A stretch of 64,000 nucleotides of DNA. Origin: Aromatoleum buckelii (GTDB lineage Bacteria; Pseudomonadota; Gammaproteobacteria; Burkholderiales; Rhodocyclaceae). Made by a program: the position numbers and the translations under genes. The stretch covers positions 868,001-932,000 of the forward strand of contig NZ_WTVH02000010.1 in assembly GCF_012910785.2 (NCBI RefSeq). The letters are read 5' to 3'. Of the stretch, positions 41-9,735 are shown piece by piece. The notes beneath the pieces were generated by a model, which searched no databases, was not told the DNA's origin, and saw only the letters and a list, made by a program, of their open reading frames with translations. The first letter of the stretch is position 1. Each line of letters begins with the position of its first letter.

Positions 41-70
41 AATTTTCTCGAAGTGAGGGAGTTCTACAAG

Positions 71-334
71 ATGAAGAAATCGAGGTTTTCGGACAGCCAG
101 ATCATCGAGGCACTCAAGCGCGTGGAGGGCGGGCTGTCGGTGCCGGAGCTATGCCGGGAGTTGGGCATCAGCTCGGCGACGTTCTATAAGTGGCGGGCGA
201 AATTCGGCGGCATGGATACCTCCATGATGGCCCGGATGAAGGAGCTGGAAGCCCAGAATGCCCGGCTGAAGAAGATGTACGCCGAAGAGCGACTGAAGGC
301 GGACATCCTCAAGGAGGCGATGGCAAAAAAGTAA
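71..334 (+). CDS. IS3-family transposase OrfA (helix-turn-helix subunit)
   Basis: 87 residues from ATG 71, preceded by a purine-rich GAGGGAG. The N-terminal part has the classic IS3 OrfA helix-turn-helix ([16 protein letters not shown] ... [14 protein letters not shown]) that recognises the inverted repeats. A Leu/Glu/Lys-rich C-terminal helix ([18 protein letters not shown]) looks like the leucine zipper used for dimerisation. An in-frame upstream start at 53 exists but ATG 71 gives the standard N-terminus (MKKSRFS). It ends at TAA 332-334, directly after the slippery heptamer, so part of the translation probably shifts into orfB to give the OrfAB transposase. Confidence 0.9.
325..331 (+). 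other. A-AAA-AAG slippery heptamer, programmed -1 frameshift site
   Basis: The last codons of orfA read GCA AAA AAG TAA. A -1 slip at A-AAA-AAG re-phases the ribosome to AAA AAA GTA, which is the orfB frame, and orfB is open through this point. This is the standard mechanism for making the active OrfAB fusion in IS3 elements. I did not model a downstream stimulatory stem-loop. Confidence 0.75.
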
Positions 335-357
335 CGCGGCCATCTCGTAGGCGTGAG

Positions 358-1158
358 ATGGCCAAGGAAGTGGTTGCGCGACGCGGCATCCCGATCCGCT
401 TGGCCTGCGATATCTTCCAAGTGAGCGAAACCTGCTATCGCTACGAGGCCAAGCGAAACAGCGAGAACCAGGAAATCGCCGACTGGCTGATGAGGCTGAC
501 CGACAACCATCGCAACTGGGGCTTCGGGTTGTGCTACCTGTATCTGCGCAACGTGAAGGGCTTCGCCTGGAACCATAAACGGATCTATCGAATTTACCGG
601 GAGCTCGAACTCAATCTGCGGATCAAACCCCGCAAGCGGCTCGTCAGGGAGAAGCCGGAAGCGTTGGCGGTGCCGACAGCGATCAACCAAGTCTGGTCGA
701 TGGATTTCATGCATGATCAGCTCGAAGACGGTCGCTGCTTGCGCCTGTTCAACGTGATCGACGACTTCAATCGCGAAGCCTTGGGCATCGAGATCGACTT
801 CTCGTTGCCAGCCGAGCGCGTGATTCGGGCTCTGGAGCAGATCATCGAGTGGCGCGGCAAACCCGTGGCGATTCGTTGCGACAACGGCCCGGAGAACATC
901 AGTGGCCTGGTTCAGCGCTGGGCCGAGCAGCGGCAGATCCGGATGGATTACATTCAGCCGGGAAAGCCCGCGCAGAACGCTTACGTCGAGCGCTTCAACC
1001 GCACGGTGCGTTACGAGTGGCTATCGCAGTATTACTGGTCGGACCTCGACGAGGTCCAGCTCTTCGCCACGCAGTGGATGTACAACTACAATCACGACCG
1101 CCCAAACATGGCCTTGGGCGGCATCACTCCAAAACAGCGGCTGGCTATGGCCGCGTAG
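358..1158 (+). CDS. IS3-family transposase OrfB (DDE integrase core)
   Basis: 266 residues if started at ATG 358; the same frame is open upstream through the frameshift site, so in vivo it is probably read as the C-terminal half of OrfAB. An HTH_21-type region ([16 protein letters not shown]) precedes an rve integrase core. The DDE triad is recognisable as WSMDF, RCDNGPE and the glutamate in [15 protein letters not shown], which follows the second Asp at the usual distance of about 35 residues. The C-terminus ([19 protein letters not shown]) is characteristic of IS3 transposases. No frameshift or internal stop is seen. Confidence 0.92.
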
Positions 1159-2177: not shown

Positions 2178-2804
2178 ATGATTCTCAGATACGGGCCTAT
2201 TGCCGGGATTTTCCTCGTTTGCGCGGTGCACGCGCAGGCTCCGGCCGACGTCTACAGTCGTGGCGGCGCAAATCCCGCAGCCGTTGCATGTGCAAGCTGC
2301 CACGGCGCGCAGGGAGAGGGTATGGAAGCCGGCGGCTTTCCGCGGCTCGCGGGCTTGCCCGCCGACTACATCAAGAAACAGCTCGCCGACTTTGCTTCCG
2401 GCGCTCGGGCGAATCCGATCATGCAGCCGATTGCTTCGGCGCTGACACGCGAAGAGATCGATACGCTCGCCGCGATGCTCACCGCCCAGGCTTATCCCGA
2501 GGTGGCACCGGTCGGCAAGGGGGCCGAGGTGCAGGAGCTGGGAGAAACGCTGGCGCTGCGCGGCGCGTGGGATCGCAACATCCCGGAATGCGTGGCCTGC
2601 CACGGGCCGGGCGGACGAGGGGTGGGCGAAGTCTTTCCGCCGCTCGCCGGCCAGCCCGCGCAGTACCTCGCCGCCCAGCTGATAGCTTGGCAACAGGGCA
2701 CGCGCACGAACGATCCGAACGATCTCATGGGTCATATCGGGCGCAGCCTGACAGCAGACGAGATCGAGGCGGTGTCGAAATACTTCGCGGGCCTGAAGAA
2801 ATAG
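2178..2804 (+). CDS. tsdB: Di-haem cytochrome c4-type protein, TsdB-like electron acceptor
   Basis: 208 residues with a cleavable signal peptide ending near VHAQA. Two CXXCH haem sites are present, C38-A-S-C41-H42 and C138-V-A-C141-H142, each followed by the class I cytochrome pattern (GxGMEAGGFPRLAG; GGRGVGEVFPPLAG) and a distal Met region (NPIMQPIA; NDLMGHIG). This two-fold repeat is typical of cytochrome c4. Such a c4-type partner, TsdB, is encoded beside tsdA in several bacteria and accepts its electrons. A GGAGG lies 7 bases before ATG 2178, and tsdA follows after 10 bases, so they form one operon. The name TsdB rests on this context; on its own the protein would just be a c4 cytochrome. 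Confidence 0.85.
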   Translation: MILRYGPIAGIFLVCAVHAQAPADVYSRGGANPAAVACASCHGAQGEGMEAGGFPRLAGLPADYIKKQLADFASGARANPIMQPIASALTREEIDTLAAMLTAQAYPEVAPVGKGAEVQELGETLALRGAWDRNIPECVACHGPGGRGVGEVFPPLAGQPAQYLAAQLIAWQQGTRTNDPNDLMGHIGRSLTADEIEAVSKYFAGLKK

Positions 2805-2814
2805 GAGCGCAGAC

Positions 2815-3741
2815 ATGAAGATATCGTGTACGGCAGTGCTGCTCAGCGCCTTCGGCTTTGCCTCCTTCGCGGCTCAGGGGGCCGAAATCGCGGAAGACCA
2901 GTCGCAGATTCTCACTCGCCCGGACTCACCCGCGAGCGGGCGCTATTTCAGGCCGCCGTTGGAAAGGGAAATCCCGGACAACGCTTTTGGCAAGCTGGTG
3001 CAAGAAGGGCGCGCGATCTTCGTCGATACGAAGAACCGCGCGCCGGAGTACGTCGGCAACGGGCTCAGCTGCGGCAACTGCCACCTCGAACAGGGGCGAA
3101 GGGCGAACTCCGCGCCGCTGTGGGCCGCCTACACGATGTACCCGGCGTATCGCAAGAAAAACGACAGGGTCAACAGCTACACCGAGCGCCTGCAAGGCTG
3201 TTTCCAGTTCAGCATGAACGGCAAGGCGCCCGAAGCCGAAAGCCGCGTCATCGCTGCGCTTACTGCATATTCGTACTGGCTCGCGATGGGGGCCCCGACC
3301 GGACAGGAGCTGCCCGGCCGCGCCTATCCCGAAGTGCCGCCGCCGGCAGGCGGCTTCGATCTCGCGAAGGGCGAGCGGATCTACGCGGACCAGTGCGCGA
3401 TATGCCATGGCGCCGATGGCGAGGGGCAAAAAGCGGGCGAAAACTACGTATTCCCCCCGCTGTGGGGGGCGGACTCGTTCAACTGGGGAGCCGGGATGCA
3501 CCGGATCAATACTGCCGCGGCGTTCATCAAGGAGAACATGCCGCTGGGCAAGGGGGGCACGCTGTCGGACGAGGACGCCTGGCATGTCGCGGCGTTCATG
3601 AACAGTCACGAGCGGCCGCAGGACCCCAGGCTGATCGACGGGTCGGTCGAAAAGACGCGCGACAAGTACCACGCGAACGACGGCGTGAACCTGTACGGTA
3701 TGGTCGTCAACGGCAGGATGCTGGGCCAGGGCGTGGAATGA
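2815..3741 (+). CDS. tsdA: Thiosulfate dehydrogenase TsdA (tetrathionate-forming)
   Basis: 308 residues with a signal peptide (cleavage probably after FAAQGA), so periplasmic. TsdA joins two thiosulfates to tetrathionate and releases two electrons. Haem 1 is bound by C86-G-N-C89-H90; the motif QGC129FQFSMNGK carries the cysteine that serves as the unusual distal axial ligand at the TsdA active-site haem. Haem 2 is C194-A-I-C197-H198 (GADGEG), with NMPLGKGGTLSDEDAWHVAAFMNS downstream supplying the Met/Lys ligand region. All signature features of the family are therefore present. AGGAG precedes ATG 2815. The substrate direction (thiosulfate oxidation or tetrathionate reduction) cannot be told from sequence. 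Confidence 0.9.
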   Translation: MKISCTAVLLSAFGFASFAAQGAEIAEDQSQILTRPDSPASGRYFRPPLEREIPDNAFGKLVQEGRAIFVDTKNRAPEYVGNGLSCGNCHLEQGRRANSAPLWAAYTMYPAYRKKNDRVNSYTERLQGCFQFSMNGKAPEAESRVIAALTAYSYWLAMGAPTGQELPGRAYPEVPPPAGGFDLAKGERIYADQCAICHGADGEGQKAGENYVFPPLWGADSFNWGAGMHRINTAAAFIKENMPLGKGGTLSDEDAWHVAAFMNSHERPQDPRLIDGSVEKTRDKYHANDGVNLYGMVVNGRMLGQGVE

Positions 3742-3898: not shown

Positions 3899-4414
3899 AT
3901 GTTCGAAATATCGACACAGTTGACTCGCATGAATTGCATCGTTTCCTCGATACCGGGCCGGCTGCGGCTACGCAATCGGGCATTGCGTGAACCCGATCGG
4001 CATGCTCGCCTGCAAGCGCTGCTGGAGGATCTCGACGGGGCTCTGGCCGTCGAAGGGAGCATCAACGCCGGCAGCCTGTTGATGCGCTACGACGCCGCCC
4101 GGATCGACAGGGCGACGATGGAAGCGCAGGTGACGACCGCGGCCGGGAAGGTGCTGGGAGAAGTCCCGGAGACCGTGCGGGAAGCGCCGAACGCGGTGCA
4201 GCCGGCTTCCCCCGGGCGCTGGAAGCTCGGTTCGAGGCGCGCCATTGCGCGGCGCCTCAATACCTACTCGAAGATTGGCATGCTCGGTAGTCTCGGGGCG
4301 TCGCTTGCGCTGGCGGCGGTCGGGAACAAGCACCTGCACGCGGCCACCGGAGGCTTGTTCACGGCGCTGCTTGCGATTCACATGGCCGTGCACCGGCGCC
4401 ACTTGTTGAAATAG
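3899..4414 (+). CDS. Small HMA_2-like protein with C-terminal membrane segment
   Basis: 171 residues from ATG 3899; ATG 3929 (MNCIVSSIPGRLR) is an alternative. The N-terminal 80 residues look like a degenerate heavy-metal-associated ferredoxin-like fold: the turn IPGRLRLRN is the hallmark of HMA_2-type domains, and there is no CXXC metal site. A basic linker (PGRWKLGSRRAIARRL) leads to two hydrophobic stretches near the C-terminus (IGMLGSLGASLALAAVG; GGLFTALLAIHMAVH). It is the first of nine closely spaced genes leading to a P1B-type ATPase, so a role as a membrane accessory protein or adaptor for that ATPase is likely. The exact function is unknown. Confidence 0.7.
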   Translation: MFEISTQLTRMNCIVSSIPGRLRLRNRALREPDRHARLQALLEDLDGALAVEGSINAGSLLMRYDAARIDRATMEAQVTTAAGKVLGEVPETVREAPNAVQPASPGRWKLGSRRAIARRLNTYSKIGMLGSLGASLALAAVGNKHLHAATGGLFTALLAIHMAVHRRHLLK

Positions 4415-4440
4415 CTCGAAATACCGTGTTGGAATCCCCC

Positions 4441-4776
4441 ATGGACGAATTCGATCAACTGCAACGCTTCACCGGCTACCTGCGTATCGCGCACCACATC
4501 CCGGGACGCATACGGCTCAAGCTCGAGGGCGATCTGGACTCGGCTCGGCTCGCGGCAATCGGCGACGCAAAACGCTTCGGGCGTGCGCTCGATAGCATCT
4601 CCGGCGTGCATTCGGTCAAGCTCAATATTCTGGCCCGCTCCTGCACGATCGAATACGACACGAGCACGATCCCGGCCGCCGCCTGGCCGGATCTGTTGGG
4701 CGGCGTGCGCTCGACCGCGGCGGAAACACTGCTGGACATACTGGTGACCAAGCATCGGGAGCTGCTTGGTGCGTAA
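4441..4776 (+). CDS. Soluble HMA_2-like domain protein
   Basis: 111 residues. ATG 4441 is preferred because GGAA lies 7 bases upstream; GTG 4426 would add five residues. It carries the pattern GYLRIAHHIPGRIRLKLEG at the start of a betaalphabeta-betaalphabeta HMA-like fold, followed by GVHSVKLNILARSCTIEYD. The PGRIR turn matches the preceding protein and, more loosely, the N-terminus of the ATPase (RGRARFRY). It has no CXXC, so classic copper-chaperone binding is not expected. The 3' end overlaps the next gene by 8 bases, indicating translational coupling. I infer a partner of the downstream ATPase. Confidence 0.75.
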   Translation: MDEFDQLQRFTGYLRIAHHIPGRIRLKLEGDLDSARLAAIGDAKRFGRALDSISGVHSVKLNILARSCTIEYDTSTIPAAAWPDLLGGVRSTAAETLLDILVTKHRELLGA

Positions 4777-5470
4777 CTACGACGAAGCGATCTTGCGCAG
4801 CCGGCGAATCGACCCCGCTGCGCCATTTGCGCCGCTGCAGCAGGGGCTGCGCATTGCGCTCTACGACGCCTATGCAGCACGGGCCTTTTACACGAAGATG
4901 GTCGAGGCGTTCGGCCCGCGCGCTCCATTCGCCGATCTCGCCAAATCGGAAGAGAAGCACACGGCGACCCTTTCAACGCTCGCACGGCGCTTCGGCGTGC
5001 CGCTCCCGCTCGATCCCTTTCCTCTCGAAACCGCGTTGGCGCCCGACTGGCGCGCCAACTGCGAGCGGGCCGTGGCCGGCGAGATCGGGCGGGTGCGCCT
5101 TTACGAATCGCTCCTGACGGGAATCGCCGAGCCGCAAGTCCGCCGGACCTTCCAGCGTTTGCAGGCGAGCGCACTGGAACGTCATTTGCCGATGCTGCAA
5201 CGCGCCGTGACCGATGCGCTGCGGCAGGAAGCGCTTCATGCGCGACAGGGCGTGGCACCCGAACAAGCGTATATCCAGCATGGTCTATTCGCCGATTTTC
5301 TCGAGAAAACCTTCGCCGTGCTCGGGAGCCAGCACCACGCCATCGGCGTCGTCGGCCCGCTCCTGCGCAACACTCGCCCGGCCATGATCGCCGGGCTCGT
5401 CGCGGGCGGGGCAGGCGTTCTGTTCGTCAAGGACAAGCGTAAACGCAACCAACAAGAAAAGGAGGGATGA
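4769..5470 (+). CDS. Ferritin-like (DUF2202-type) four-helix protein with C-terminal membrane anchor
   Basis: 233 residues from GTG 4769, overlapping the upstream stop. The region from about residue 22 to 150 is a four-helix ferritin-like domain: helix 1 ALYDAYAARAFYTKMVEAF, helix 2 FADLAKSEEKHTATLSTLARRFGVPLP (E-x2-H), helix 3 AVAGEIGRVRLYESLL, helix 4 QASALERHLPML (E-x-H). These give acidic and His residues at spacings suited to a di-iron centre, although helix 1 has Asp where Glu is usual. A C-terminal hydrophobic segment (AMIAGLVAGGAGVLFV) followed by KDKRKR would anchor it in the membrane. A membrane-tethered ferritin-like protein beside a metal ATPase suggests iron binding or oxidation at the membrane; this is inference. 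Confidence 0.7.
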   Translation: MRNYDEAILRSRRIDPAAPFAPLQQGLRIALYDAYAARAFYTKMVEAFGPRAPFADLAKSEEKHTATLSTLARRFGVPLPLDPFPLETALAPDWRANCERAVAGEIGRVRLYESLLTGIAEPQVRRTFQRLQASALERHLPMLQRAVTDALRQEALHARQGVAPEQAYIQHGLFADFLEKTFAVLGSQHHAIGVVGPLLRNTRPAMIAGLVAGGAGVLFVKDKRKRNQQEKEG

Positions 5471-5471
5471 C

Positions 5472-5834
5472 ATGTACCCCTTGCTTCCATTCGCCGTCGG
5501 CCTGGTGACCGGTGCCTTGGGCATCCGGCTGCTCAAGGCGGGCAAGACCCGCGCCACGCTCGACAAAGCCCAGGAGCGCCTGCGGGAGGCGACTGTGTCG
5601 AGTCTTAGCGCGATCGAACATTCGTCGGCCCACTTGCGCGCGAAGCTCGCCACAGACGCCGAACCGCCGCTCGAAACGGCAGCCCAGGTGCAAGCGGCGC
5701 CAACCCCGGCGGAGTCGAAAGTGAAGCCGGAGTCGAAGGCTGCTCCGCGTCGCCGGCGCAAGCCCGCATCCGGTAGGGCCGAGTCCGCCGGTCAACGCGC
5801 GCAAACCGAGAAGCCCGACGAGGACAAGCCGTGA
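5472..5834 (+). CDS. Single-pass membrane protein with charged Lys/Pro/Glu tail, function unknown
   Basis: 120 residues with a strong AAGGAGGG ribosome binding site 5 bases before ATG 5472. One N-terminal glycine-zipper-like segment (PLLPFAVGLVTGALGIRLL) is followed by an amphipathic Ala/Glu/Arg-rich helix (about residues 25-60) and a low-complexity Pro/Lys/Ala/Glu tail. The layout (one TM, then a charged helix, then a variable tail, just upstream of a P1B ATPase) recalls the DUF1490/PacL-type scaffold proteins that partner P-type metal ATPases in mycobacteria, but I see no metal-binding His/Asp motif at the C-terminus. Homology is not claimed. Confidence 0.6.
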   Translation: MYPLLPFAVGLVTGALGIRLLKAGKTRATLDKAQERLREATVSSLSAIEHSSAHLRAKLATDAEPPLETAAQVQAAPTPAESKVKPESKAAPRRRRKPASGRAESAGQRAQTEKPDEDKP

Positions 5835-6175
5835 AGCGGCGGCTGCGCCCCTATCCGGCCCCCGCCACAGATCCCGCGTCGGCGAATTTTGTCCGCGGGT
5901 TCGTCGCCACCGGCCTCCTCGCAGCGCTGCCGAGTGGGGCGGCAAGCGCCACGGCGCCGAATGCCGGCAAAGCCATCCTGCGTCAGGCACTGCAAGGCGG
6001 AATCGCCCTCGCGGCAGGCGGGACGGCAGCAGGCGCCCTGCAGCGTCGCGATTACCGGACGGCCGTAGTGGCTGTCACCGGCGGCGCGGCCGCGGTAATC
6101 GCTGTCGATTACCTGTTGCGCAAACCTGCGCGCAAAGACAACAAGGAGAAGGCTCTTGGGCAAGAAAAAGCATAA
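5831..6175 (+). CDS. Small hydrophobic Ala/Gly-rich membrane protein, function unknown
   Basis: 114 residues from GTG 5831, overlapping the preceding stop by 4 bases. Two or three hydrophobic Ala/Gly-rich segments are seen (FVRGFVATGLLAALPSGAA; GGIALAAGGTAAGALQ; AVVAVTGGAAAVIAVDYLL). A basic C-terminus (RKPARKDNKEKA) probably faces the cytoplasm. I do not recognise a family. Small glycine-zipper-like membrane proteins of this kind occur in gene clusters that shape intracellular membranes, but the resemblance is only compositional. Confidence 0.6.
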   Translation: MKRRLRPYPAPATDPASANFVRGFVATGLLAALPSGAASATAPNAGKAILRQALQGGIALAAGGTAAGALQRRDYRTAVVAVTGGAAAVIAVDYLLRKPARKDNKEKALGQEKA

Positions 6176-6539
6176 GAAGGCGAAGCACCGCGACAAGGCC
6201 GCGGCTTACGCCGGCGGATCCTGGGGTGAACACCCGCATTACAGCGGTTTCGGCGCGCAGGGCCATCATGCGGGTGGTTTCGGCGCCGGACTGGTCGACG
6301 AGGATTTCCTGCGGGGGCTTCCCGGCCGGCTCAAGTCGGGCCAGTACGAACAGTTCCTGATGGGAGCGGTAATCGGGGCTGCGGCCGCGTACGTGCTCAG
6401 TGACGAGGAACTGCGCGCCAAACTGGTGAAGACCGGCATCAAACTCTATTCGAACGTGGTCGGCGGCTTGGAGGAGATGAAGGAGCAGATGGCCGACCTC
6501 AAGGCCGAAGCAGAAGCGGAGCGCCGCGGCGACGCATGA
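6156..6539 (+). CDS. Lys/His/Gly-rich small protein with one hydrophobic segment, function unknown
   Basis: 127 residues from TTG 6156, with AAGGAGAAGG just upstream and a 20-base overlap with the previous gene. The start is unusual: a polybasic head (GKKKHKKAKHRDK), then a Gly/His/Tyr/Phe-rich stretch (EHPHYSGFGAQGHHAGGF) holding four of the protein's histidines and plausibly metal-binding. A hydrophobic segment follows (FLMGAVIGAAAAYVL), then a C-terminal amphipathic helix (VGGLEEMKEQMADLKAEAEAE). It overlaps the ATPase start by 4 bases (ATGA), so the two products are made together. No known family recognised. Confidence 0.6.
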   Translation: MGKKKHKKAKHRDKAAAYAGGSWGEHPHYSGFGAQGHHAGGFGAGLVDEDFLRGLPGRLKSGQYEQFLMGAVIGAAAAYVLSDEELRAKLVKTGIKLYSNVVGGLEEMKEQMADLKAEAEAERRGDA

Positions 6540-8620
6540 CTTCGGGTCCGTGGTTCGGCACGCTCGAACTCGTCCATCGCACGCGCGGGCGCGCGCGCTT
6601 TCGCTACCGCTGCCGGACGGGCACGCCGACCGATGCCAGGACGATCGAGCGGGCCGCCGAAAACATCCCCGGCGTGCTCGAAGCGCGAGTCAATCGCGCG
6701 GCCCGTTCGCTGGTGCTGCATTTCGATGACAAGGAGGTCGAACTCGAGACCTTGCGTGCAGCGCTTGGGGCCTTGTCTGCCCCGCTTGCGGCGGTACGGG
6801 GATCGGCCGTTGTCGAAGAAGGCGGACCGGCGTCGATGGTCGCGAGTCTGGCGACACTGGCCATCACGCGTTTTCTGCCGCAGCCGCTGCAGCTTCCGGT
6901 GACGCTCGGGGCGGCCGCGCCCCTGCTCAGGCATGCGCTGGAGGACCTCGTCGCCAACGGCATTTCGTCGCATGTGCTGGAGGCGATGGCGGTATCGATC
7001 TCGCTCGCGCGCGGTGACTATACGGCCGCCAATACGACCACTTTCATGCTGGCGTTGGGGGAATACCTCGAGATTTCGATCGCCCGTCGTTCGGACGATC
7101 TGCTCAAACACCTTTTGCGTCCGGCAAGCGACGAGGTCTGGATCGAGCGCGGCGGGCAGGAAGTGTTGGTTGCGGCCGGTGAAGTTGCGGTCGGCGATAC
7201 GGTGATCGTCGCGGACGGCGCTGTCGTTCCCGTTGACGGCACTGTGCTGGGAGGCGAAGCCACCGTCAATGAAGCGACGATGACGGGCGAGAGCGCCGCG
7301 GTAGCGAAGGGGCGGGGCGACGCGGTTCTTTCCGGGACGCTGGTCGAAGAGGGCCGCCTGAGAGTGTATGCGGAACAGGTCGGCAGCCGCACGGCCGCTG
7401 CGCGCATCGCCGACTACGTCGAACAGTCGCTGACGGCGAAAAGCGCGGCACAACTCGACGCCGCGCGCCTTGCCGACCGCCTCGTGCCGATCGTGCTGGG
7501 GCTGGCCGGTGCCACGTATTTTATTTCGGGCGACTGGCGTCGGGCCGCGTCGGTGCTGCAGGCCGACTATTCCTGCGCGCTCAAGCTCGCAACGCCGGTC
7601 GCTTTCAAGTCGGCGATGTACGGCGCGGGGCGTGCCGGAATCCTCGTCAAGGGGGGCAGCGCCCTCGAGCGTCTCGCCGATGCCGACACCTTCATCTTCG
7701 ACAAGACCGGCACGCTGACCGCAGGCACGCTCGCCGTGACCGATTCGATCGCGTTCGACAGCACCTACACTGCGGAAGACCTGCTGTGCCTCGCGGCTTC
7801 GGTCGAGGAGCACTACGTCCATCCGCTGGCGCACGCGGTCGTCACCGCAGCGCGCGCGATACACGGGCAGCATTTCGATCACCAGGAAGTGCAGTTCATC
7901 GTCGCCCACGGCGTCGCAAGCGTCATCGATGGCCAGCGCATCGTCATCGGCTCGCGGCATTTCGTCGCCGATGACGAAGGGATCGACATTTCGGCACATC
8001 TCGAGACCGTCGACCGGCTTTACGAGGAAGGCAAGACGCTGCTCTACATCGGCTTCGGCGGCAGGTTCCTCGGCGTGCTGGCGCTGAAGGACGAAGTGCG
8101 CGCCAACAGCGCGGCGACCATTCTCCGGCTGCGCGAGTTGGGCGCCAAGCGGATCCTGATGCTCACCGGCGACCACCGCGAGCGGGCCGAAGAACTTGCC
8201 GAGCATCTCGGGCTCGATGGCTGCCATGCCGAGTTGCTGCCGGAGGACAAGGCGCGGATCGTCGAAGAATTTTCGCGGCAAGGCGCGCGCATCGCCTTTA
8301 TCGGCGACGGCATCAACGACGCTCCGGCGCTCGCCGGTGCCCATGTCGGCATTGCAATGCAAAAAGGTGCGGATATTGCGCGCCTGACCGCCGACGTGGC
8401 GCTGCTCGAGGACGACATCGCCTGCGTGGCCGACGCGAAGGCCTTGGCGAACGGCACGATGGCGCTCATCGGTTCCAACTATCGCCTGACGGTGGGACTC
8501 AACACGGGCATTCTCGCTGCAGCTGCAGCCGGGCTGCTGTCGCCGATCACCACTGCGATGCTGCACAACGGCAGCACGATCGCGATCCTGCTCAACGCCT
8601 TGCGCCGCAGCAGCGTCTGA
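6536..8620 (+). CDS. P1B-type heavy-metal-translocating ATPase with atypical S-C-A membrane motif
   Basis: 694 residues. All P-type ATPase hallmarks are present: the actuator TGES (TMTGESAAVAKG), the phosphorylation site D389-KTGT, the nucleotide-domain HP motif (YVHPLAHAV), a TGD box (LTGDHRERAEE) and G590-DGINDAPAL in the hinge. The metal-site helix reads DYS346-C347-A348-LKLATP instead of CPC, SPC, TPC or CPH, and the last helices carry MLHNGSTIAILLNALR. The N-terminal 80 residues resemble a degenerate HMA_2 domain without CXXC. This motif places it outside the copper and zinc/cadmium branches; P1B-6 ATPases (the FezB group of ferrosome loci) and mycobacterial CtpC-like pumps are candidate relatives, so iron, manganese or zinc are possible substrates. 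It is translationally coupled to the small upstream genes. Confidence 0.9.
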   Translation: MTSGPWFGTLELVHRTRGRARFRYRCRTGTPTDARTIERAAENIPGVLEARVNRAARSLVLHFDDKEVELETLRAALGALSAPLAAVRGSAVVEEGGPASMVASLATLAITRFLPQPLQLPVTLGAAAPLLRHALEDLVANGISSHVLEAMAVSISLARGDYTAANTTTFMLALGEYLEISIARRSDDLLKHLLRPASDEVWIERGGQEVLVAAGEVAVGDTVIVADGAVVPVDGTVLGGEATVNEATMTGESAAVAKGRGDAVLSGTLVEEGRLRVYAEQVGSRTAAARIADYVEQSLTAKSAAQLDAARLADRLVPIVLGLAGATYFISGDWRRAASVLQADYSCALKLATPVAFKSAMYGAGRAGILVKGGSALERLADADTFIFDKTGTLTAGTLAVTDSIAFDSTYTAEDLLCLAASVEEHYVHPLAHAVVTAARAIHGQHFDHQEVQFIVAHGVASVIDGQRIVIGSRHFVADDEGIDISAHLETVDRLYEEGKTLLYIGFGGRFLGVLALKDEVRANSAATILRLRELGAKRILMLTGDHRERAEELAEHLGLDGCHAELLPEDKARIVEEFSRQGARIAFIGDGINDAPALAGAHVGIAMQKGADIARLTADVALLEDDIACVADAKALANGTMALIGSNYRLTVGLNTGILAAAAAGLLSPITTAMLHNGSTIAILLNALRRSSV

Positions 8621-8692
8621 ACGCCGCGGCAGCGCGGATCCAGAAGGAACCGAACCGGCAGGAACGGCAGGTGGTTCGTCGGAGGCAGCATT

Positions 8693-9376
8693 TTGCGTTT
8701 TCTTCGGAATTGGCTGGAGCCGCGGATACTCGGCATAGTCGCTGCCGTGACGTCCGCGCTGTGGATCTTCATCGAGGTCGCGGAAGATGTCGTCGAAGGG
8801 GATACGCACGCGTTCGACAACGCGATCCTGATGGCGCTGCGTCCGCCCGGCGACGCGCAGGCCCCGTTGGGCCCGCCGTGGATCGAGGCGGCCGCGAGGG
8901 ATATCACGGCGCTGGGCAGCTTCACCGTGCTGGGGCTGGTGGTTGCGGCGGTGACGGTCTTCCTCCTCCTGGCCAGGCGGCACCGCACGGCGATGTTCGT
9001 GCTGCTCGGCACCAGCAGCGGGACGCTGGCTTCCGTCTTGCTGAAGGGCGCTTTCTCCCGGCCCCGGCCGGATATTTTTCCGCACGGAGACTTCGTCATC
9101 TCGGCAAGCTTTCCGAGCGGGCATGCGATGCTCTCGGCGGTCGTGTATCTGACGCTCGGAGCCTTGCTGGCGCGACTGGTGCCGCGGCGCCGGCTCAAGC
9201 TCTATGTGATGTCGATCGCGCTGGCGCTGACCGTGATCGTCGGCCTCAGCCGGATCTATCTGGGGGTCCACTGGCCGACCGACGTTCTCGCCGGGTGGGC
9301 CGCCGGCGCGGCGTGGGCGCTGGGATGGTGGGGTGCGGCGGAGCTCGTGAAAATCCGCAACGGGGAGCGCGCGTGA
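8693..9376 (+). CDS. PAP2-family membrane phosphatase
   Basis: 227 residues from TTG 8693. The three PAP2/acid-phosphatase signatures are intact: KGAFSRPRP (KxxxxxxRP), PSGH (SASFPSGHAMLS) and SRIYLGVHWPTD (SRxxxxxHxxxD). About six hydrophobic segments fit an integral membrane enzyme acting on phosphatidic acid, undecaprenyl diphosphate or a similar lipid phosphate at the outer face of the membrane. The gene starts 72 bases after the ATPase and overlaps the DgkA gene (GTGA), so a lipid phosphatase and a lipid kinase are made together, which suggests recycling or adjusting of phosphatidic acid and diacylglycerol. Confidence 0.88.
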   Translation: MRFLRNWLEPRILGIVAAVTSALWIFIEVAEDVVEGDTHAFDNAILMALRPPGDAQAPLGPPWIEAAARDITALGSFTVLGLVVAAVTVFLLLARRHRTAMFVLLGTSSGTLASVLLKGAFSRPRPDIFPHGDFVISASFPSGHAMLSAVVYLTLGALLARLVPRRRLKLYVMSIALALTVIVGLSRIYLGVHWPTDVLAGWAAGAAWALGWWGAAELVKIRNGERA

Positions 9377-9735
9377 AAGGCCGTGGGTTCCGCGAACGCC
9401 TCGGTTTCGCGCTGCACGGCCTGCAGCTGGCGATCAGCCGCGAGAAGAGCTTCCGCGCGCATGTCCTGGCGGGCGGGGCGATGCTGTGCGTGTTGCTGGT
9501 GGCCCGTCCGCCGCTCGTCTGGTGGATGGTGCTTGCGCTGACGGCGGGTTTCGTCATGGTGACCGAACTCGTCAACACCGCGCTCGAGACGCTGGCCGAT
9601 CACCTTCATCCCGAACGGCATCCGGAGATCGGCGCATGCAAGGACATCGCGGCAGGCGCGGTGCTCGTGGCCGCCGCGACGGCGCTCGTCGTCGGGATCG
9701 TTTTCGCCGCGCAGTGGTTCCGCGGCTGGTCCTGA
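9373..9735 (+). CDS. dgkA: Diacylglycerol kinase, DgkA family
   Basis: 120 residues from GTG 9373, which overlaps the upstream TGA; E. coli DgkA is 122 residues. The N-terminal amphipathic helix (RERLGFALHGLQLAISREKSFRAH) and the family signature MVTELVNTALETLADHL followed by KDIAAGAVL hold the conserved Glu and Asp/Lys residues of the active site at the membrane face. Three hydrophobic helices are predicted. The enzyme phosphorylates diacylglycerol (or undecaprenol in related forms) with ATP. It closes the run of genes that starts at 3899. Confidence 0.88.
   Translation: MKGRGFRERLGFALHGLQLAISREKSFRAHVLAGGAMLCVLLVARPPLVWWMVLALTAGFVMVTELVNTALETLADHLHPERHPEIGACKDIAAGAVLVAAATALVVGIVFAAQWFRGWS

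Follow-up and report, generated by a model that had tools for sequence, protein, structure and literature searches.

A candidate fez (ferrosome) operon in Aromatoleum buckelii with an extra ferritin-fold gene that is partly degenerate

Ferrosomes are small membrane sacs that store iron and are among the few lipid-bounded organelles of bacteria; to our knowledge, the roles of their small proteins have been little described. The DNA considered here is a 64,000-nucleotide stretch of Aromatoleum buckelii contig NZ_WTVH02000010.1 (the window; all coordinates below are numbered in it, and L and G codes denote the loci and genomes compared). Near its start lie seven genes, g1 to g7, which we interpret as a fez (ferrosome) operon of the six-gene type plus one added gene, the partly degenerate ferritin-fold gene g3. 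Considering gene content, motifs, and related loci together, we put the probability of this reading at roughly 0.77.

Gene content and layout of the locus

An earlier note on this DNA had described nine genes, most neighbors from 4441 to 6536 being closely packed and two of the nine encoding HMA_2-like proteins, and each of these observations was confirmed. All nine open reading frames lie on the + strand. The first seven form a compact head-to-tail run (3929 to 8620) whose members overlap or lie at most 26 bp apart, the gaps from g1 to g7 being, in sequence, 26, -8, 1, -4, -20, and -4 bp. Homologue starts moved the beginning of g1 from 3899 to the ATG at 3929 and set that of g3 at the GTG at 4769. 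The seven genes, with the evidence for their assignment where it is specific, are as follows.

3929..4414, + strand: g1, FezC-like protein; N-terminal ferredoxin-like domain (HMA_2) lacking CxxC, followed by a helical hairpin (Pfam, alignment, hhalign, AlphaFold2)
4441..4776, + strand: g2, small soluble protein of the HMA_2 type, with PGRxR but lacking CxxC (Pfam HMA_2 E value, 2.7e-8; one Cys)
4769..5470, + strand: g3, DUF2202 ferritin-fold protein with a C-terminal Gly/Ala-rich hydrophobic helix (residues ~204 to 220)
5472..5834, + strand: g4, N-terminal Gly-rich transmembrane helix and Ala/Glu/Lys-rich tail; candidate FezA (DUF6110-like) counterpart
5831..6175, + strand: g5, small Gly/Ala-rich membrane protein (hydrophobic segment, residues 79 to 95)
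6156..6539, + strand: g6, His/Gly-rich N terminus, Gly/Ala-rich hydrophobic helix, and charged tail, YtxH-like (Pfam YtxH E value, 1.1e-5, below cut-off)
6536..8620, + strand: g7, FezB-type P1B-6 ATPase with an N-terminal HMA_2 domain without CxxC (motifs, Pfam, NCBIfam, tree)

Pfam HMA_2 matches exceeded the cut-off in g1 and g2 and fell below it in the N terminus of the ATPase (25.1 versus 30 bits). The remaining Pfam matches were weak for g3 (Rubrerythrin/DUF2202) and g6 (YtxH/DUF5132) and comprised E1-E2 ATPase and HAD for g7 and PAP2 and DAGK_prokar for the two genes that follow it; g4 and g5 had no Pfam match over the cut-off. Judging by the sequences and their Cys positions, a CxxC pair is absent from g1, g2, and the ATPase N terminus, and a short hydrophobic segment rich in Gly and Ala is present in each of g3, g4, g5, and g6. 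Ratios of nonsynonymous to synonymous substitution rates (dN/dS; Nei-Gojobori method, up to six congener pairs, g2 and g6 compared over their conserved parts only) were at most 0.50 for each of g1 to g7 in every pair tested, with a dN of 0 in one g2 pair, and were 0.10 to 0.26 for the PAP2 and DgkA genes (three congener pairs). Since these values are low, all nine genes are considered coding and constrained, and all seven genes of the run are under purifying selection.

A P1B-6 ATPase of the FezB type

The fourth transmembrane helix of g7 reads DYSCALKLATP, with the SCA motif (codons at 7571 to 7579) that marks P1B-6 ATPases in this helix, and the last transmembrane helix carries LHNGST (HN codons at 8564 to 8569). 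NCBIfam models over the cut-off were only the broad P-type ones (heavy-metal, cadmium-family, and HAD-IC). A conserved HN in the sixth transmembrane helix is described as a P1B6 feature, and mycobacterial CtpC, which has the HN with CPC in the fourth helix, is called P1B6-like (excerpt of PMC9374683). We placed g7 in a tree of 63 ATPases, 39 with SC or AC in the fourth transmembrane helix plus HN and 24 others (12 CPC, 5 CPC with HN, 4 SPC, and 3 CPG). The tree was made by a quick method with no bootstrap and a midpoint root, from sequences labeled by motif beforehand, and in it all 39 P1B-6 sequences, g7 included, share one side of a branch with a Shimodaira-Hasegawa-like approximate likelihood ratio test (SH-aLRT) value of 100. 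All five sequences combining CPC and HN, as in CtpC, fall on the opposite side with the 19 other non-P1B-6 sequences. The 39 divide into a set of 9, made up of anaerobe sequences (Lachnospiraceae, Anaerotignum, other Bacillota, and Mailhella) and L043, and a set of 30. The window's clade accounts for 17 of those 30 and holds sequences of its own family, Azospirillum, G833/G867, and, more deeply, Arcobacter. Placement in a P1B phylogeny, which the earlier note had proposed as a check, thus assigns the ATPase to P1B-6 and not to the CPC (Cu/Zn) groups, and by motif and tree position it is a P1B-6 pump, FezB.

Of the 80 loci listed from a genome scan with generic P-type ATPase motifs, 9 carry the P1B-6 motifs. 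In the window's family, G052 carries a second kind of P1B-6 cluster (L043:9636-12074), whose FezB groups with the anaerobe set, whose small protein weakly matches both DUF1490 and DUF6110, and near which lies a FeoB relative. In the annotation of an Arcobacter sp. AZ-2023 plasmid, FezB (L062:6690-8803) is split into an HMA-like "hypothetical protein" and a shortened ATPase, and a similar plasmid (L059) has a single gene at that position. A FezB homologue in G452 (L069; 46% identity) contains one in-frame TAG.

g1 as a FezC homologue

The HMA_2 match of g1 (Pfam E value, 1e-7) is followed by a hairpin in which His137 and His151 (codons at 4337 to 4339 and 4379 to 4381) are invariant in 15 aligned relatives. 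This H-X13-H arrangement places the two residues 14 apart, the spacing of cytochrome b heme ligands. A g1 profile built from the window's family and Azospirillum scored 89 bits over the length of an HMA_2 protein with a C-terminal hairpin encoded downstream of FezB in Mailhella (Desulfovibrionaceae; L141:8408-8923; hhalign, 99.4% over 145 columns). The Mailhella locus runs DUF6110-FezB-HMA_2/hairpin, and from its place and domains we infer that the last of these proteins is FezC. The AlphaFold2 model of g1 has an HMA fold and then two long helices (mean predicted local distance difference test score, 82.6), and a Protein Data Bank (PDB) sequence search with the g1 profile returned, for the most part, HMA domains from copper and zinc proteins (best E value, 6.5e-7). 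DUF4405 was matched by 11 of the 15 g1 relatives at an E value of at most 1 (best, 0.0016), with the window's own match under the cut-off (0.099). FezC is described as a DUF4405-like, heme-b ferrosome protein and a predicted homodimer (excerpt of PMC11334425). Taken together, domain order, the His pair, and the profile matches assign g1 to the FezC family, as an HMA_2 protein with an H-X13-H helical hairpin for which heme binding is predicted.

Conservation of gene order and distribution

An ATPase with at least 62% identity was found in 13 of 150 genomes of the family, the window's own included. Within the genus, 12 of 17 genomes had an HMA_2 match; 11 of these were mapped, and the twelfth (G158), with a single HMA_2 match, was left unmapped. 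The earlier note had named conserved gene order in relatives as a further check, and the order g1 to g7 is the same in all 11 mapped genus clusters; this order without g3 recurs in other families and, in part, in Arcobacter. Ten other loci were compared within the window's family: nine hold the whole set g1, g2, g4, g5, g6, and g7, and the tenth (L014) is a 4.2-kb contig with g4 to g7 only. The position of g1 varies among the nine, as it comes first in four (L034, L038, L041, and L042), directly after FezB in three (L035, L037, and L040), and 3 to 4 kb away on the other strand in two (L036 and L039). The order g1-g2-g4-g5-g6-g7 is found in L034, L041, and L042, in G833 (L198), and on an Azospirillum brasilense plasmid (L058; annotated as HMA2, cation transporter, two hypotheticals, YtxH, and ATPase); L038 has the same order with g3. 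Arcobacter plasmids carry g2, g3, g4, g5, g6, and FezB with a short g1-like hairpin protein (weak match), and gamma-type loci such as L074, L075, L199, and L200 carry a related set with a divergent g1. Elsewhere the cluster is rare: with no more than two ATPase candidates scored in each genome, it was detected in 7 of 397 others sampled from the phylum, and with no more than three, in 2 of 385 genomes of one further class; 14 named control genomes had no HMA_2 match over the cut-off.

The cluster of G646 (L201) has the six-gene order with two g1-like HMA_2 genes at its front. It is of the window type, its ATPase being 40% identical to the query, and the other 17 hits in G402's family (G402 included) have ATPases with 59 to 100% identity to the gamma-type query. 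The occurrence of a window-type cluster in G646 amid these 17 gamma-type genomes suggests horizontal transfer.

Six gene families thus co-occur in 9/9 of the other family clusters. Shewanella putrefaciens reportedly has a six-gene fez operon (Grant et al. 2022). Six fez genes are reported for Rhodopseudomonas palustris CGA009 (RPA2333-2338; excerpt of PMC12016538), and the locus resembles both systems, as described, in combining a P1B-6 FezB with a few small membrane proteins; the window has the extra DUF2202 gene g3. Clusters of Desulfovibrionaceae (Mailhella L141) and of Lachnospiraceae and other Bacillota (L114 to L118 and L132) share a P1B-6 FezB, a DUF6110 protein encoded before FezB, and, in L141, a FezC homologue, whereas the window adds g2, g3, g5, and g6, has a weakly recognizable FezA counterpart, and has its FezB in a separate subclade. 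The earlier suggestion of a fez-like locus is supported by the P1B-6 ATPase, the conserved gene order, and the homology of g1 to FezC.

Small proteins and the FezA counterpart

Both g2 and g5 are present in all nine other family clusters, and g6 directly precedes FezB in the window, in the 10 other genus clusters, and in the same nine. A small protein in the FezA place precedes FezB in the Mailhella and Bacillota loci. Three such proteins, those of L141, L115, and L132, were scanned, and all are DUF6110 (Pfam E values, 2.3e-7, 1.7e-41, and 2e-30); the other Bacillota proteins in this place were assigned to DUF6110 by alignment. The g4 profile, which had absorbed Gly-rich transmembrane proteins of gamma-type loci during iteration, matches FezB-adjacent DUF6110 proteins of L115 (E value, 4e-5) and L141 (E value, 9e-4).

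A ferritin-fold protein in the operon

The product of g3 aligns with annotated DUF2202 proteins and shares their ferritin four-helix fold, but differs from them in its C-terminal hydrophobic helix and in the loss of the helix-1 Glu ligand, which is Ala at position 33. Four of five diiron ligands are kept (E60, H63, E104, and H138), so that the complete set (E, ExxH, E, H) is absent from the window's g3. Six congeners keep one of five, and g3 relatives form a series of 5/5, 4/5, 3/5, and 1/5 ligands. By its residues, the diiron site is a decayed, degenerate one. The gene occupies the same slot in 11/11 mapped genus clusters, in two of the nine other family clusters, and in both Arcobacter plasmids. 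The earlier view of a ferritin-like protein as part of the locus therefore holds as regards its recurrence in this slot, but has to be tempered by the degenerate diiron site. Similarly, the membrane anchor proposed for g3 is favored by a 17-residue, Gly/Ala-rich C-terminal segment with a mean Kyte-Doolittle hydropathy of 1.96, but this segment fails a 19-residue window at 1.5. A PDB sequence search with the g3 profile gave only E values of 0.46 (chain 5n5e_e, named PFC_05175) and 0.99. Among the literature hits listed, none was seen to describe a ferritin-like gene as part of a fez operon, and we do not claim that none has been published.

Iron genes and Fur-box-like sites near P1B-6 loci

Relatives of FeoA, FeoB, Fur, or TonB receptors were found in 8 of 32 P1B-6 loci, compared with 1 of 75 loci of other P-type ATPases; the queries were drawn from P1B-6 loci, and without the four of the 32 that supplied a query the counts are 4/28 and 1/75 (P = 0.019). 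Because some loci are interrelated, locus lengths differ, and 2 of the 75 comparison loci (L168 and L189) lack a standard motif in the fourth transmembrane helix, this enrichment is a hint and not proof. Control of fez by Fur is reported for Clostridioides difficile (excerpt of PMC12574912). In a scan for Fur boxes, the best match was reached by 5% of shuffles or less in 4 of the 32 loci. The best Fur-box-like site among these 32 loci was in L042, where 15 of 19 positions agree with the consensus, 45 bases upstream of the start of the g1 match, a score reached by 0 of 200 shuffles.

Alternative interpretations and neighboring genes

The earlier note had named as its main alternative an efflux platform like mycobacterial PacL/CtpC, a zinc efflux system. 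In such a platform, located in the plasma membrane, the ATPase would export surplus Zn, Mn, or Fe into the periplasm, and the only task of the small membrane proteins would be to cluster it. Both systems combine a P1B ATPase that has HN in its last transmembrane helix with an adjoining small transmembrane partner or helper. CtpC is moreover P1B6-like and DUF6110 proteins accompany P1B6 ATPases (excerpt of PMC9374683), and the small protein of L043 has weak matches to DUF1490 as well as DUF6110. However, CtpC has CPC in its fourth transmembrane helix, and its DUF1490 partner bears a metal-binding motif (same excerpt); neither this CPC nor such a partner was found in the window: g7 has SCA, the five sequences with CPC and HN group with non-P1B-6 ATPases, and the ten window proteins scanned gave no DUF1490 match at E values up to 1. 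These two differences, motif and partner, weaken the alternative. In addition, a FezC-type cytochrome would have no obvious place in such a platform, and such iron genes as were found lie close to P1B-6 loci. We regard efflux of this kind as unlikely.

Two further genes directly follow the run on the same strand.

8693..9376, + strand: PAP2 phosphatase, lineage-specific neighbor, not core (Pfam E value, 9.7e-24)
9373..9735, + strand: DgkA diacylglycerol kinase, lineage-specific neighbor, not core (Pfam E value, 3.5e-29); the start is probably the GTG at 9373

All nine genes might function together as a unit, with PAP2 and DgkA remodeling vesicle lipids. The two genes are co-directional with the run, begin 72 bp after FezB, and overlap each other, and they adjoin the cluster in all five congeners with a close PAP2 relative. 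Nevertheless, they flank only these same 5 of the 11 genus clusters, and neither was found at the other six or at any of the nine other family clusters (L042 ends 460 bp after its ATPase; DgkA was looked for at clusters only), and both were accordingly rejected as core genes. A genome-wide search recovered PAP2 relatives in 7 of 17 genus genomes, five beside the cluster and two elsewhere, and the latter (53% in G158 and 35% in G156) adjoin no mapped cluster. The four other carriers of PAP2 and DgkA share the window's ATPase almost unchanged in the dN/dS pairs, so that synteny by descent suffices to explain the association. PAP2 and DgkA are local, lineage-specific neighbors; the nine-gene extent given earlier was not upheld, and a nine-gene unit is very improbable. 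An equally slight chance is given to a fez-derived module that exports Fe(II) across the inner membrane as detoxification, with no vesicle, which has a possible parallel in the iron-exporting P-type ATPase DR1440 (excerpt of PMC6091924), but for which the small membrane proteins and FezC, conserved as a set, would be superfluous.

Upstream of the run, two c-type cytochrome genes (2178 to 3741, + strand), one weakly PdsA-like and one SoxA/TsdA with cytochrome c, resemble a thiosulfate dehydrogenase pair. As parts of the locus they were rejected: both occur in L032, the second in L080, and they are not in L033. Two overlapping open reading frames at 53 to 1158 (+ strand), ~2.8 kb upstream of the operon, read in translation like an IS3-type transposase pair.

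Weighing the ferrosome reading

The identity, order, and conservation of the genes are established, and from these we infer vesicles and iron. Several points weigh against a ferrosome operon. P1B-6 pumps are little characterized, so the metal carried by g7 is a matter of inference, and the matches of g1 relatives to DUF4405 are weak (best E value, 0.0016). The FezA match is unproven and uncertain between g4, the candidate counterpart, and g6, because hhalign against DUF6110 reached only 62% for g4 and 53.5% for g6 and the g4 profile took in gamma-type proteins. The likeness to proven ferrosome operons (R. palustris RPA2333-2338, S. putrefaciens, and D. magneticus) was drawn by means other than direct sequence comparison. 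Furthermore, seven query proteins revealed no FeoA, FeoB, TonB, or Fur relatives in the 64-kb window, and upstream of the window's operon no Fur- or FNR-like box exceeded chance, the best Fur-box match there (11/19) being reached by 24.5% of shuffles.

Possible mechanism and implications

In a ferrosome encoded by g1 to g7, FezB would pump cytosolic Fe(II) into vesicles derived from the inner membrane. A FezC dimer holding b heme would move electrons across the vesicle membrane and set the redox state of the stored iron, while g4, g5, and g6 might cluster the pumps and give the vesicle its shape. The CxxC-less HMA_2 domains of g1, g2, and FezB may act as docking modules and not as binders of soft metals. 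Since its diiron site is incomplete, g3 would be an accessory on the vesicle membrane that delivers or nucleates iron, or a scaffold.

It is possible, though we hold this tentatively and consider it doubtful, that one class of ferrosome operons has recruited a ferritin-fold protein tethered to the vesicle, its gene lying between the HMA_2 and scaffold genes. Such a protein would serve as a ferroxidase or iron nucleator in some lineages and would be kept in this genus as a pseudo-ferritin with a structural or iron-delivery role. If so, the protein-cage and lipid-vesicle strategies of iron storage would be united in one operon, and g3, occurring as it does in Arcobacter and several lineages within the window's family, would count as an optional ferrosome module of long standing. 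The series of g3 ligand states could be used to ask whether ferroxidase activity matters inside the ferrosome, and this compact seven-gene version with a ferritin-fold subunit may offer a genetic handle on iron entry and mineralization in the vesicle.

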